A DNA stretch of 34,157 nucleotides from assembly GCA_023245765.1 (NCBI GenBank), contig JAHFJP010000013.1:1-34157 (forward strand), read 5' to 3'. This DNA comes from Candidatus Peribacteria bacterium. Its GTDB lineage: Bacteria > Patescibacteriota > Gracilibacteria > Peribacterales > Peribacteraceae. The position numbers and the translations under genes are program-made. Of the stretch, positions 2,944-6,678 are shown one piece after another. The notes under the pieces were generated by a model. It made no database searches. It was not told the DNA's origin and saw only the letters and a program-made list of their open reading frames with translations. Position 1 is the stretch's first letter; each line of letters starts with the position of its first letter.

Positions 2944-3915
2944 TTATGCGAGGTATTGCTTCAAGTTCTTTCCAATTCTCCCGATCACGTCGGGATCCTT
3001 CGGAATCTCAAACGGCAATCCCGTCATCTTTTCGTACAGATCGATGTACTTGGCGGCGAGCATCACACGCACGTCATCGGTCACTGCCGGGCGCGGTCGT
3101 CCGTCATCGATAAATCCCTGGTCTTTGAGCCAGAGACGGAAGAATTCCTTATCGAGTGATTCCGGCTCTTTGCCCTCTGCGAAGCGCTTCTCATAGGTCG
3201 AGGCGATCCAGTAACGGGAGGAGTCGGGCGTGTGGACTTCATCACCCACGCGGAGCACTCCTTCCGTGTCATACCCCATCTCGTATTTAGTATCGACCAG
3301 GATCAACCCGCGCTTTGCAGCCACTTCCTGGCCGCGCTTGAAGAGCGCGAAGGCGTGATCCTTCACACGGTCGATTTCTTCGCGCTTGGTCACTCCAAGT
3401 CCGATCAATCCTTCCGGGCTCATCGATTCGTCATGGCCTGTCTCGGGTTTCGTCGATGGCGTGAAGATGGTCTTGCTCAGTTTCTGGTTCTTCTTCATGC
3501 CATCGGGCAATGCGTTGCCGCAGAAGTCGCGCACGCCTTTTTCGTAGTTCACCCAGGCGGATGTTGTGGTCGAACCTGTCAGGTACGCGCGGACGACGAC
3601 TTCAAATTTGAGCATCTTTAGCTTCTTCGCAACGGTCACGTTGGGATCGGGAGTCGCGACGACGTGTGTGGGCATCACGTCGTTGACCTGCTCAAACCAC
3701 CAGTTACTGAGTTGGTTCAACACCTGTCCCTTGAGCGGGATCGTCGTCCACTGGTAATCGAATGCCGACTGTCGATCAGAGGAAATTAGAATCACCCGAT
3801 CGTCTTTCGAATACACATCCCGCACCTTACCGGTGTACTTGGCTCCGAGATTTTTGAAATCGGTGCTGTCGAGCGTCGTGGAGAGGAACGGCCGGAGAAT
3901 GTCGTGCGAAATCAT
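2944..3915 (-). CDS. purC: Phosphoribosylaminoimidazole-succinocarboxamide synthase (SAICAR synthetase)
   Basis: This cytosolic enzyme joins CAIR and aspartate using ATP, a late step of de novo purine synthesis. Visible family elements are GKVRDVY with downstream ISSDRQSAFD in the ATP-binding lobe, VVVRAYLTGST near residue 127, the substrate loop TPSTKPETGHDE and the metal/ATP segment LILVDTKYEMG. At 323 aa it belongs to the longer form of the family. A minus-strand TATCAT (plus 3922-3927) ends 6 nt before the ATG and fixes the start. The gene converges on DUF192 with 3 bp between stops. purB, the next enzyme in the pathway, lies about 17 kb away in this window. Confidence 0.95.
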   Translation of the reverse strand: MISHDILRPFLSTTLDSTDFKNLGAKYTGKVRDVYSKDDRVILISSDRQSAFDYQWTTIPLKGQVLNQLSNWWFEQVNDVMPTHVVATPDPNVTVAKKLKMLKFEVVVRAYLTGSTTTSAWVNYEKGVRDFCGNALPDGMKKNQKLSKTIFTPSTKPETGHDESMSPEGLIGLGVTKREEIDRVKDHAFALFKRGQEVAAKRGLILVDTKYEMGYDTEGVLRVGDEVHTPDSSRYWIASTYEKRFAEGKEPESLDKEFFRLWLKDQGFIDDGRPRPAVTDDVRVMLAAKYIDLYEKMTGLPFEIPKDPDVIGRIGKNLKQYLA

Positions 3916-3921
3916 GCGCAG

Positions 3922-3927
3922 ATGATA
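3922..3927 (-). promoter_or_regulatory. Putative -10 for purC
   Basis: Minus-strand TATCAT ends 6 nt before the purC ATG at 3915, consistent with a leaderless transcript. The -35 is not recognisable. Confidence 0.45.
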
Positions 3928-3959
3928 GGGATTTGATTTGCTTCCCGGAAGGGCTTAGC

Positions 3960-4415
3960 ATGGTTCCCGACATCCCCCCATTTTCCATGGACATTTCCGC
4001 CGGTTCTTCGAGACGAGGAAGCAAAGCCCTCAACATGATCATTGTGATCGGGCTCATCGCTCTCGTCCTGGTTCTCGATCTCCGGAGGCGCGACGCGGAG
4101 AAGAAGTTGATGGAGCTCTCGGTCCAGGTGGAACAGCAGGGTGGCAACCAGGCGCAGAACCAGGAAATTGCCAAGCAGGTCGTTGCCAGAGTGCGAAAAC
4201 TCTACGTGATTCCCGAGGGCATCGAGCCCACGGTGGCCACGATCGTCGATGTCGCCCAGCTGCGGTCCCGCAACGCCTTCTACAACAAGGCGAAGAATGG
4301 CGATCATCTGATCGTCACCAATGACCGCGCGATCCTCTACGATCCGATTGCCGACAAGATCATCGACGTGGTGCCGGTGCAGATTCAGGCGCCGGCGGCG
4401 GAGCCGAAGAAATAG
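3960..4415 (+). CDS. Membrane-anchored hypothetical protein (CPR-type family)
   Basis: The protein has one N-terminal membrane segment (MIIVIGLIALVLVLDL, near residues 26-41), then a short Gln-rich coiled stretch and a compact C-terminal domain. That domain (VIPEGIEPTVATIVDVAQL, then AKNGDHLIVTNDRAILYDP) resembles a small domain common in Patescibacteria, by memory; no function is known to me. The frame opens at TTG 3933, but a Shine-Dalgarno-like GGAAGGG (3947-3953) sits 6 nt before ATG 3960, so I use that start (151 aa). It is one of few genes here with a clear ribosome-binding site. The soluble domain probably faces outward. Confidence 0.8.
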   Translation: MVPDIPPFSMDISAGSSRRGSKALNMIIVIGLIALVLVLDLRRRDAEKKLMELSVQVEQQGGNQAQNQEIAKQVVARVRKLYVIPEGIEPTVATIVDVAQLRSRNAFYNKAKNGDHLIVTNDRAILYDPIADKIIDVVPVQIQAPAAEPKK

Positions 4416-4431
4416 AGCTGGATAGAGTACT

Positions 4432-4449
4432 AGAATACTAGAGTATTAG
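4432..4449 (+). repeat. Left inverted repeat flanking the four-helix-bundle gene
   Basis: This 18-nt sequence is a perfect reverse complement of 4946-4963. It lies in a run of near-identical octamers (TAGAGTAC, TAGAATAC, TAGAGTAT, from 4423). The two arrays bracket the gene at 4582-4941. Confidence 0.8.
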
Positions 4450-4463
4450 GGCCAGGAGGAATT

Positions 4464-4483
4464 GTTCCATGAGGTCGTGGAAC
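4464..4483 (+). repeat. 20-bp dyad, copy 1
   Basis: GTTCCATGAGGTCGTGGAAC is a near-perfect palindrome centred on GG. It differs from the copy at 29006-29025 by two transitions. It lies between the left octamer array and the four-helix-bundle gene and could be a protein-binding site or a dispersed repeat. Confidence 0.5.
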
Positions 4484-4581
4484 TAAATTAACGGCTTCAG
4501 AGAGCGAAAATTTGCCTTTCTTAAAAAAGAAATCCAATTTCCTATCTGTCTCCTCTGGATTGACTCCGTAACACTGTTTTT

Positions 4582-4941
4582 ATGAAGTCATTTACTGATC
4601 TGAAAGTCTGGCAAAAGGGCATGGAGCTCATGGCCGCAGCGTATGAGCTCTCAAAGAAGTTCCCGCGCAGTGAATGTTATGGATTGACCCAACAGCTGCA
4701 CGATTCTACCAGAAGTGTTGTTTCCAATATTGCCGAAGGCTTCGGCCGATTTACTTTTCCCGATAAGGCAAATAGATACACCATTGCAAGAGGCGAATGT
4801 GCGGAAAGCGAATCGCATATTCTCATGGCAATCACGCTCAAATATGTTACGGCTGAAGAAGCATCAAGATGTCTCGGGATGGCCCGTGAAGTCGGTCGAA
4901 TGCTTTCGGGATTAATCTCTGCCTGCCGCAGCAGGTCCTAA
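4582..4941 (+). CDS. Four-helix-bundle protein (23S rRNA IVP / S23 family)
   Basis: The 119-aa protein matches the S23/IVP family: FTDLKVWQKGMEL at the start, an aromatic-basic first helix, then LTQQLHDSTRSVVSNIAEGF near residues 36-55 (the family hallmark SIxxNIAEG) and two further amphipathic helices. Relatives are encoded in intervening sequences of some 23S rRNA genes, and Avd of diversity-generating retroelements shares the fold. The cellular role of free-standing copies is unclear. Here the gene is stand-alone and enclosed by perfect inverted repeats 497 nt apart, which recalls the terminal stem of an rRNA intervening sequence. No reverse transcriptase is in the window. The ATG at 4582 matches the usual N-terminus. 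Confidence 0.93.
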   Translation: MKSFTDLKVWQKGMELMAAAYELSKKFPRSECYGLTQQLHDSTRSVVSNIAEGFGRFTFPDKANRYTIARGECAESESHILMAITLKYVTAEEASRCLGMAREVGRMLSGLISACRSRS

Positions 4942-4945
4942 TATT

Positions 4946-4963
4946 CTAATACTCTAGTATTCT
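4946..4963 (+). repeat. Right inverted repeat flanking the four-helix-bundle gene
   Basis: This is the perfect reverse complement of 4432-4449, starting 5 nt after the gene's stop. It lies within octamers TAATATTC, TAATACTC and TAGTATTC. TATTCT at 4958-4963 could also act as a -10 for the gene starting at 4974. Confidence 0.8.
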
Positions 4964-4973
4964 TTCTTTTCCT

Positions 4974-5414
4974 ATGCGTTCAACAATTCTCACATTACTC
5001 GCGATTGTCTTGGCTCTTGCTCTGGGCATCCTCCTTGGCTGCATATTCAGCATCACGTGGCGGACCATTCCGCCAACAATCCTGCGTGAGGACACACGCC
5101 CGATCATCCCCGTCATCATGATCACTGGCGTGCAGAATGGGAGTCTCACTGGAATCATGCGCGGCGATGTCCGGTTCTTCGTTCGTGATACGCAAGTCCT
5201 TCCGTCTGCGAGTGGATCGTTCAAAGCTCCTGCGGGATCGCTCTTGAAGAATCTTACGACCGTGAAGGTTCCCGCAGGCATGAAGTTCGCTGCGTCGAAG
5301 CGCGGTACGAAGTACTACCCCGTTGCATCCCGGTCAGCCCAAAATCTCTCTCCCGAAAACCGCATCTACTTCCGGTCTGCGGCGGATGCCGAAGCGGCTG
5401 GATACGTTCAATAA
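4974..5414 (+). CDS. Membrane-anchored protein with a Cys-less Ada-like domain
   Basis: An N-terminal hydrophobic segment (residues about 4-25) precedes an extracytoplasmic region. The last 40 or so residues (ASKRGTKYYPVASRSAQ, then LSPENRIYFRSAADAEAAGY) match the small Ada-like metal-binding domain common in Patescibacteria, normally ending in I-x-F-x-S-x-x-x-A-x-x-A-G-Y. In the versions I recall a Cys sits in the motif after Y-x-P-W; here Ser residues occupy that place and the protein has only one Cys (Cys16, in the membrane segment). Zinc binding through the usual ligand is therefore doubtful. No Shine-Dalgarno sequence is seen. The gene starts 11 nt after the right inverted repeat. Confidence 0.75.
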   Translation: MRSTILTLLAIVLALALGILLGCIFSITWRTIPPTILREDTRPIIPVIMITGVQNGSLTGIMRGDVRFFVRDTQVLPSASGSFKAPAGSLLKNLTTVKVPAGMKFAASKRGTKYYPVASRSAQNLSPENRIYFRSAADAEAAGYVQ

Positions 5415-5421
5415 CAGCGCA

Positions 5422-6678
5422 TCACCGCTTCTCCGGATCCGGAAGCGTCGTGAGTCGGTATGCGGTCACGCAGAGAACGACCAGCAGTAGCAGTGTGCGA
5501 AGAGCCATGATCACAAACAGTCGTGGCGAGGCGACGGTGCCGTGGAACCAATCGAGATATTCGGTGTAATTGAGGGGAAAGATGACTTGTGTCATCAGCA
5601 GGCCGGCCATCACACTCAAGATGACGAATTTTCGCAGTGAGGTTTTGAACCATGCGAGAGGAATGAATGGCAGGAATGCCACCGCCCACCAGAGATACTG
5701 GGGATTCACGACTTTCGAGAAGAAGAGGAATGCGAAGAGCAGCAAAAACGCGTACCCCGGATCGGTGAAACCGCGACGACGCCCGACGCGGAAAATGCCA
5801 ATAATGGCCGCGCCGGTCGGCAGGATCCAGAAATTGTTGAGGACAGGGTCGCTCAGGAGCGGTAGGTCGGTCGTGAGGCCATGGACGCCGTAGTTGGGAG
5901 TGATCCTGAGCGGTATGCCTGCGAGATACTGCACGATCGTGATGGCATTCCCCCAAAATCCTTCCAGTCCGACAGGCTTGAGTTGATGGATAGCGAGACT
6001 TTGCAGCATGCCATCGAACGACAGACCGAGTTCGATGGCGAGGACGACGGGACCGAGCAGGCCGATGAAAAACCAGAGCAGCGTATGCAGCATTCCGCGC
6101 CAATCTCTCGCTGCGAAACCAGGCATCAGAACGACTGGCATCAGAACGACTGGATACAATTTGATGCTCGTCGCGATTCCGAGCAGTAGTGCCGCGTCCG
6201 CGTGCCGGTCTTTTTGGAAGAGCATCCATGCGACGAGCGTCAGAAGACTCACGAGCAGTTCAAACCGGAAGAGCAGGATGGGGCCCATCGCCGCCGCAAC
6301 AGCCAGAAAGAAGAGCGCCGCGTACCGGTGTCCGACCGCGCGGAAGAATGCGAAATGTGCTGCGATCAATGCCGCGTTGACCAGCATCGCTGCCGTGAGA
6401 AATGCTTCGTAATTGTCAGCACTGGGCGTCAGGAATCCCAAAAATGCGAAGAACCAGAGAGCGCCGGGCTGGTACTCGTTGTAGTCCATTCCCGCCCAGG
6501 AGCCGTTTGAGAAGAAATGATTCGCGCGCGATTGGAACGCGCCGATATCGGGTTCCAGATGCTGCCTCCACCACGGATGGAACGCTTGAATAAAGAGCAT
6601 CACGAGAAGCGCCGCAAGCAGACACCATGATACCGCCGGAGAGAGTGCGAGGCGCCTCAGCGCCGTACTCTTCTTCAT
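5422..6678 (-). CDS. GT87-like polytopic glycosyltransferase (GT-C fold), copy A
   Basis: This 418-aa protein has about ten membrane helices. The first outer loop carries the acidic motif LEPDIGAFQSRA near residue 44, followed by SWAGMDYNEYQPGALW, typical of GT-C enzymes that take sugars from polyprenyl-phosphate donors. Other conserved pieces are SIKLYPVVLMP, LKPVGLEGFWG and NPQYLWW. All are shared with the gene at 9598-10857, so the two are paralogues. The start overlaps the asnB stop by 4 nt (ATGA), indicating translational coupling. A perfect 15-bp tandem duplication gives an extra VVLMP in a loop or helix. Sugar and acceptor are unknown; surface-glycan assembly is inferred from context. 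Confidence 0.85.
   Translation of the reverse strand: MKKSTALRRLALSPAVSWCLLAALLVMLFIQAFHPWWRQHLEPDIGAFQSRANHFFSNGSWAGMDYNEYQPGALWFFAFLGFLTPSADNYEAFLTAAMLVNAALIAAHFAFFRAVGHRYAALFFLAVAAAMGPILLFRFELLVSLLTLVAWMLFQKDRHADAALLLGIATSIKLYPVVLMPVVLMPGFAARDWRGMLHTLLWFFIGLLGPVVLAIELGLSFDGMLQSLAIHQLKPVGLEGFWGNAITIVQYLAGIPLRITPNYGVHGLTTDLPLLSDPVLNNFWILPTGAAIIGIFRVGRRRGFTDPGYAFLLLFAFLFFSKVVNPQYLWWAVAFLPFIPLAWFKTSLRKFVILSVMAGLLMTQVIFPLNYTEYLDWFHGTVASPRLFVIMALRTLLLLVVLCVTAYRLTTLPDPEKR
6122..6151 (-). repeat. 15-bp perfect tandem duplication inside GT87-like copy A
   Basis: GGCATCAGAACGACT occurs twice head-to-tail and encodes a duplicated five-residue VVLMP. The paralogue at 9598-10857 has a single copy (VILLP), so the duplication is specific to this gene. 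Confidence 0.85.

Follow-up and report, generated by a model that had tools for sequence, protein, structure and literature searches.

A free-standing S23 gene bracketed by inverted octamer arrays in a Candidatus Peribacteria genome, a candidate gene-bearing member of a two-part repeat system

To our knowledge, no function has been established for the S23/IVP proteins. The palindromes of REPINs are GTAG-tagged, and the STRR sequences of cyanobacteria are heptanucleotide repeats. For the heptanucleotide repeats reported from several lineages, we know of no maker.

The 23S rRNA intervening sequence (IVS) of Coxiella burnetii is described in the available part of PMC4990558 as a sequence of 428 nt, which contains an S23 gene and whose 28-bp terminal stem is cut by RNase III. 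In REPIN/RAYT systems, a gene is tied to a genome-specific repeat and to many short, non-autonomous, extragenic inverted doublets with spacers (PMC3116915, in excerpt), and REP tags of the GTAG and CGTC type are distinguished (title of PMC3733652). The heptanucleotide families comprise TAACTGA (PMC4679880) as well as GGGAATC/GGGGAYT of Xanthomonas and Nostoc, with 70 and 75 convergent inverted pairs in two Xanthomonas genomes (PMC4692102, which also mentions heptanucleotides of Calothrix); the accessible sections of both papers name no S23 partner for these repeats, nor does XCC0516, an S23 gene of X. campestris, appear in those of PMC4692102. The S23 profile PF05635 is said to resemble Avd of diversity-generating retroelements (PMC10053308, in the part available).

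The locus described here lies in a stretch of 34,157 nucleotides from a Candidatus Peribacteria bacterium (the window), which is contig C9 of a genome of 1.45 Mb in 71 contigs (G000; in the following, G-numbers denote genomes and L-numbers loci). Like the 23S rRNA IVS, it consists of an S23-family gene between terminal inverted repeats able to form a long stem, with a size of about 540 bp (4423-4964) against 428 nt. Unlike the IVS, it is situated between two protein genes outside any 23S rRNA gene, its arms are element-specific tandem arrays and gene-free copies are scattered in the genome. With REPIN/RAYT it shares the connection of a gene to a genome-specific repeat and to short extragenic inverted forms, but the enclosed protein is an S23 four-helix bundle and not a HUH (Y1) tyrosine transposase, and the repeats are degenerate tandem units of 6-9 bp and not tagged palindromic REPs. 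The heptanucleotide repeats are likewise intergenic, degenerate arrays of a short unit; as described, they differ from the arrays reported here, which bracket an S23 gene. We propose by analogy that the unit 4423-4964 might be the gene-carrying component of a bipartite repeat system that works like REPIN/RAYT, and we give this proposal an even chance.

The S23 unit and its neighbouring genes

The S23 gene (4582-4941, plus strand) is intact, encodes 119 aa and is flanked by arrays of the degenerate octamer TAGARTAN in head-to-tail arrangement. The left array (4423-4450, plus strand) consists of TAGAGTAC (4423-4430), TAGAATAC (4431-4438), TAGAGTAT (4439-4446) and TAGG (4447-4450). The right array (4937-4964) lies on the minus strand, where it reads AAGAATAC, TAGAGTAT, TAGAATAT and TAGG, and it includes the stop codon TAA of the S23 gene (4939-4941). 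An inverted-repeat search of 3800-5600 detected a single inverted repeat, which is perfect over 18 nt (4432-4449 on the plus strand and 4946-4963 on the minus strand, 100% complementary, spacing 496 nt) and is offset by one octamer relative to the inner TAGG ends. Aligned with each other, the flanks of the locus score 36, a value that none of 2000 Markov-shuffled flank pairs reached (maximum 31). This confirms the perfect repeat within three-octamer arrays around the S23 gene that a preliminary description of the locus had reported.

The RNA of the whole unit has a computed fold with paired arms (-180 kcal/mol, z -4.2), which bears out the suggestion of an RNA-folding unit. The fold is also what an IVS-like RNA insertion would show. 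In such an insertion the arms would only pair in the transcript, the unit would fold away or be cut by RNase III, no recognition in trans would take place, and short arrays would be decayed or gene-less units. The Coxiella IVS with its terminal stem and its RNase III cleavage (PMC4990558, available part) is in line with this, as is the position of several S23 units between co-directional genes, for instance cas or transfer genes. At the window locus, no Rfam match was found in 3900-5500 with E-values up to 1, and no link to 23S rRNA was seen. The same region yielded no sigma-70-type promoter.

The leader of the S23 gene contains a hairpin (GTTCCATGAGGTCGTGGAAC, 4464-4483, plus strand) of the form TTCCAT-N6-GTGGAA, which is often followed by TGGCTT about 12 nt further on. 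Besides the window site, such hairpins are present on the G000 contigs C9, C14, C35, C40, C52 and C69; in the genus they occur upstream of several S23 genes and also solitary elsewhere. Possibly they represent a leader or terminator family. We rejected the hairpin as a part of the element, since it is also found away from S23 genes.

The S23 protein matches PF05635 over the model positions 2-106 of 106 (E 6e-31, 107.2 bits with a cut-off of 33.8). Its only other Pfam match is a weaker one to bAvd (PF22296, 1e-5), which is below the cut-off of that profile. PDB entry 2gsc is a structural relative (E 2.7e-15); 2gsc and 2rld contain five chains each, which is consistent with a pentamer, and Avd is a pentamer. 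The protein belongs to the same fold family as Avd, but unlike diversity-generating retroelements the unit contains no reverse transcriptase, and its neighbour genes have no Pfam match. A general dependence on reverse transcriptase was rejected, because most relatives with S23 arrays have no RVT_1: this domain was found in 18 of 59 relatives and in neither of the two single-contig genomes, G030 and G032, where S23 arrays are present. The reverse-transcriptase frames of G044 and G055 contain 5-14 in-frame TGA codons, which suggests that these two genomes read TGA as an amino acid.

Both neighbour genes encode hypothetical proteins, of 155 aa upstream (3948-4415, plus strand) and of 146 aa downstream (4974-5414, plus strand). 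The distance from the stop codon of the upstream gene to the left array is 8 nt, and that from the end of the right array to the start of the downstream gene is 10 nt. Homologues of the upstream gene exist in 26 of the 59 genomes (27 entries), and in 14 of the 25 entries compared (L178 and L179 were left out) the downstream gene follows. The neighbours, which had been called unrelated, are therefore not a chance pair, as their homologues adjoin without an S23 gene between them in several relatives. The gap between them is then 31 bp in G008, 51 bp in G017, 57 bp in G029 and 75 bp in G023; in six larger gaps of 173-377 bp and one of 1314 bp no S23 gene is present among the matches listed. An S23 gene lies between the neighbour homologues in G000, G001 and G020 (in G020 a distant one), and in G024 a different S23 element with GGGTTGGGGTTA arms directly follows the upstream-gene homologue. 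Orthologous sites without the S23 gene exist, as had been surmised, but clean junctions could not be read: the sites are too diverged for recognizing any target-site duplication.

The position of several arrays only a few nucleotides from a start codon, the conservation of arms at orthologous sites and the translational role proposed for TAACTGA heptamers (PMC4679880, available part) would suit a host regulator. S23 would then bind arrays near start or stop codons, and the arrays would be gene-control operators and not mobile elements. We consider this very improbable, since at one site the S23 gene is present in some genomes and missing from others, since as many as 21 S23 genes in one genome would be odd for a regulator, and since one and the same site may be occupied by an unrelated S23 that has a different unit. 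The last point is illustrated by L026 and L118, which have the same flanking genes but unrelated S23 proteins (protein score 0.19) and different units.

Inverted arrays around S23 genes

PF05635 genes were found in 44 of the 59 relatives. We surveyed 94 S23 loci (34 and a further 60 picked among the matches listed), of which 92 were analysed, L008 and L028 being too short. In the flank test, 350 bp of the left flank were aligned to the reverse-complemented right flank. The median score was 39.5 for own pairs and 19 for cross pairs (99th percentile of the latter 37, n=92). In 46 of the 92 loci the own pair exceeded all 91 crosses, and many of the remaining own pairs were outscored by elements that share the unit or by homologous flanks. 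A score of at least 30 was obtained for 81 of the 92 S23 loci against 5 of 339 ORF-bounded control genes, and one of these five is the S23 gene of the window itself. S23 genes are thus bracketed by inverted arrays of an element-specific unit of 6-9 bp. The IVS-like architecture outside rRNA is the rule. S23 genes without flanking repeats, which had been named as evidence against the bracketed unit, are a minority of 11 loci at a score of 30.

The tandem period of the arms in the 81 loci is mostly 7 (35 loci), 9 (25) or 8 (16) and rarely 6 (4) or 10 (1). On the inward strand the arms are poor in C (0.09, with 0.33 for G), and G exceeds C in 76 of 81. An AG anchor common to all units was rejected, as AG occurred 32 times against 30.5 in shuffled units (69 arms). 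The left arm of L003 (G000:C69:733-900) has grown to about four copies of a higher-order repeat of about 35 bp with GGGTAAAGA-type units, and its right arm has about two copies. In L001 (G000:C58:2463-2777) the S23 gene is broken by one TGA stop and the arms are kept.

The order of the unit variants is common to both arms (identity 0.887 in register vs 0.795 one unit off; 51 of 53). This would be expected from pairing arms in an IVS-like insertion and fits copying as well. Copying is also the core of a neutral explanation, according to which slippage and template switching between inverted copies would build and equalise the arrays, with the S23 gene merely carried along with the flanks. Bacteria commonly contain heptanucleotide repeats, for which a slippage mechanism has been put forward (Mrazek 2007, cited in PMC4679880, available part). 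However, neutral dynamics would not account for the control genes, which lack such flanks, or for a unit length that is stable on the protein tree (see below) while the unit sequence drifts. The orthologous short elements treated in the next section, which retain their arms and not their cores, suggest constraint. We regard the neutral explanation as quite unlikely.

At unrelated sites, unit and protein share their inheritance. Arm similarity can be predicted from protein similarity with a Mantel r of 0.35 (null maximum 0.107 in 999 permutations), calculated from 3031 of 3240 pairs, namely those from different genomes and with no neighbour gene in common. The proportion of pairs with like arms (≥0.5) is 0.1-0.3% in the bins of protein scores under 0.4 and 15.7% at scores of 0.5-0.6; at ≥0.7 it is three of seven pairs. 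On a quick protein tree of 76 of the 81 loci (period 7, 8 or 9, same-site orthologues included), unit length requires 13 changes, whereas 200 shuffles required 33.8 on average and never fewer than 27. This fit of unit length to the protein tree would be left unexplained by pairing in the transcript alone. Units differ between elements, and similar S23 proteins at unrelated sites have similar units. A joint movement of gene and arms as a single unit is supported. Joint inheritance of gene and arms alone could produce both the Mantel result and the result of the unit-length tree.

At a site between lexA- and dinB-like genes (named from the flanking sequence), the arms are of the TTGAGTT type in L021, the ACGAATT type in L107 and the AAGTATT type in L029, with protein scores of 0.60-0.65. 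The unit may therefore change at one site while the gene stays orthologous. Near-identical S23 copies at different sites were found neither among the 94 loci (18 minus-strand loci were wrongly oriented) nor by protein scores, and for this reason recent transposition is unsupported and recent S23 copying within one genome was rejected. One of 151 within-genome pairs has a common unit; this number is uninformative about an exclusion of unit sharing within a genome, because the proteins of these pairs are mostly dissimilar, and the idea was dropped.

The arrays are not restricted to Patescibacteria. A scan of GTDB genomes yielded 80 S23 loci, 76 of them usable (L256, L285, L303 and L271 were dropped), with a median flank score of 35 for own pairs against 19 for cross pairs. 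The own pair exceeded the 99th percentile of the crosses (34) in 9 of 26 loci from Patescibacteria and in 29 of 48 from other groups, two unclassified loci being uncounted. Matching arms were present in Bacteroidota, Clostridia, Proteobacteria, Acidobacteriota, Planctomycetes and Atribacterota, and further S23 genes of the GTDB genomes have different units inside one genome. Plasmids gave 33 records with S23 matches, mostly from cyanobacteria. All eight plasmid S23 genes examined have inverted short-unit arrays (own scores 29-63; for L313 and L318 a cross pair outscored the own pair), and the units lie between ribonucleotide-reductase genes, cas genes, transfer genes and others. The plasmid S23 gene of Trichormus variabilis has arms of the TCAGAAG type. 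These plasmid arrays resemble the heptanucleotide repeats described for cyanobacteria and Xanthomonas. In the cyanobacterial plasmid loci L313, L314 and L319, the array-bracketed S23 gene has its place between cas6 and cas4 (two records) or between cas10 and a cmr3-type gene. Such positions may explain why the S23 family is listed among cas-locus proteins (PMC3936711, available part). GGGAATC arrays, which were looked for because GGGAATC flanks are predicted for the S23 genes of Xanthomonas, were found only in G429 among 369 genomes of the class, and three more genomes fit a looser pattern. G429 has short inverted GGGAATC arrays, with no S23 gene in the four stretches examined.

Gene-free short arrays

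Short inverted arrays of the resident unit without a gene are scattered between genes. Double units of TAGARTAN occur 39 times in G000, 12 times in G001, 13 times in G034 and 0-3 times in the others of the 59 relatives. G000 contains at least 18 gene-free short inverted TAGARTAN arrays; 17 short elements lie within 16 loci and one more at C47:25557-25628. Together with five loci of G001 and four of G034, the 16 loci contain 28 short elements. Octamer arrays at unrelated loci, which the preliminary description had counted as evidence against the bracketed unit, do exist at many loci without an S23 gene, and this objection holds in part. The S23-free arrays are short inverted-array elements with the same unit, and they point to a system of dispersed repeats and not to one remnant of an insertion into rRNA.

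A short element has about three octamers and TAGG on one side, CCTA and about three reversed octamers on the other; the cores in between measure 21-45 bp and have no sequence in common. This bears on the possibility of an ordinary MITE or insertion sequence, in which an unrelated transposase would use the arrays as terminal repeats and the S23 gene would be cargo. The terminal inverted repeats, the gene-free short forms and the unit-free sites are all MITE-like. However, the unrelated cores and a terminal unit that varies from element to element, unlike the fixed ends of an insertion-sequence family, make this reading highly doubtful.

We compared 19 short sites of G000 with seven of G001, seven of G034, two of G002 and one of G017. 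Short elements at matching sites with both neighbours in common are L043/L193, L044/L181 and the second site of L051/L184; one neighbour or a rearranged neighbour pair is common to L043/L180, to the second site of L046 and L182/L189/L194, and to L049/L190. In orthologous short elements the arms are kept and the cores differ. Strict base-pair covariation between the arms was rejected, since variable positions often mismatch. These mismatches argue against an IVS-like insertion, and pure pairing would also leave the gene-free arrays that match the resident unit unexplained; we consider such an insertion unlikely. The short element L182 of G001 contains, next to TAGARTAN units, 21 nt identical to an arm of L064, the S23 element of G001 itself, and L192 of G002 has TTAG-type heptamers on one side and TAGARTAN on the other. 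In these few cases, dispersed arms appear to be rewritten towards the unit of the resident S23 element.

A correspondence between short arrays and the resident S23 unit was predicted for G007, G021, G023, G024 and G026, where GAGCTNT S23 arms had previously been seen. A scan for GAGCTNTGAGCTNTGAG gave 35, 16, 31, 40 and 4 hits, respectively, which partly are the S23 arms themselves. The prediction was thus borne out in all five genomes, and 48 of the 54 other genomes had no hits. The remaining hits were in G013 (11), G011 (10), G009 (3), G029 (3), G008 (1) and G045 (1). In G013, the S23 locus L028 is truncated at the end of its contig, and its left array is a related one. TTAG-type heptamers gave 20 hits in G001, 16 in G002 and 23 in G034, all with S23 arms of that type, compared with 0-4 in seven further genomes; the pattern read in reverse, as a control, gave 5, 15 and 6 in the three genomes. 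The count of G002 provides no support, because 16 barely differs from the backward control of 15, and seven of its 16 hits belong to one array.

Several observations count against a two-part model. G011 and G009 have GAGCTNT arrays although no S23 gene was found there, and G001 and G034 have TAGARTAN arrays without a TAGARTAN-armed S23 gene. Furthermore, G000 contains a second family of short arrays with the unit TTAGCTTN (C47:66337-66406, C47:71756-71840, C40:16694-16779 and C69:8064-8158), the partner of which is absent among the four S23 genes found in this genome. An S23 gene with a unit of the TTAGCTTN kind is L016 in G015.

A possible two-part repeat system

S23 genes and arrays are associated, and the search for other S23 genes with matching flanks that had been suggested turned up such inverted arrays at most loci. 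From the co-inheritance, the constancy of the unit length and the genome-wide match of the unit we infer that S23 recognizes its unit; dispersal we infer likewise. In the most economical model, an oligomer of the S23 four-helix bundle would recognize its own repeated unit in DNA or RNA. Several subunits might read several units, and the gene-free arrays would be clients. The element and its short copies would be spread and maintained through this recognition, as are RAYTs and REPINs. Copying from one arm to the other and from other elements may rewrite the arms, so that both ends would switch the unit together, and template switching or conversion between the arms would keep the two ends alike. 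If transcribed, the arms would pair into a long stem that encloses the gene, and this may allow the unit to reside inside operons. An enzyme for strand breakage or copying is not encoded in the unit and would presumably be provided by the host.

In a wider and more tentative form, to which we give somewhat less than an even chance, the free-standing S23/IVP proteins would be the partners of inverted arrays of degenerate 6-9 bp units throughout the bacteria, including the heptanucleotide repeats of cyanobacteria and Xanthomonas. Each protein would read its own unit and would spread or rewrite arrays across the genome without a nuclease of its own, and the S23 genes in 23S rRNA would be a special case.

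Among the papers listed in searches of the open-access literature, judged by title and the start of the abstract and with subscription papers and preprints outside this scope, we did not find a link between S23 genes and such arrays. The S23 family and short repeats are each known; as far as could be seen, their link and the element-specific inverted arrays are apparently new. The link gives a testable function for the S23 protein and a testable origin for the heptanucleotide repeats, and it places the puzzle of intervening sequences in rRNA within a larger system.
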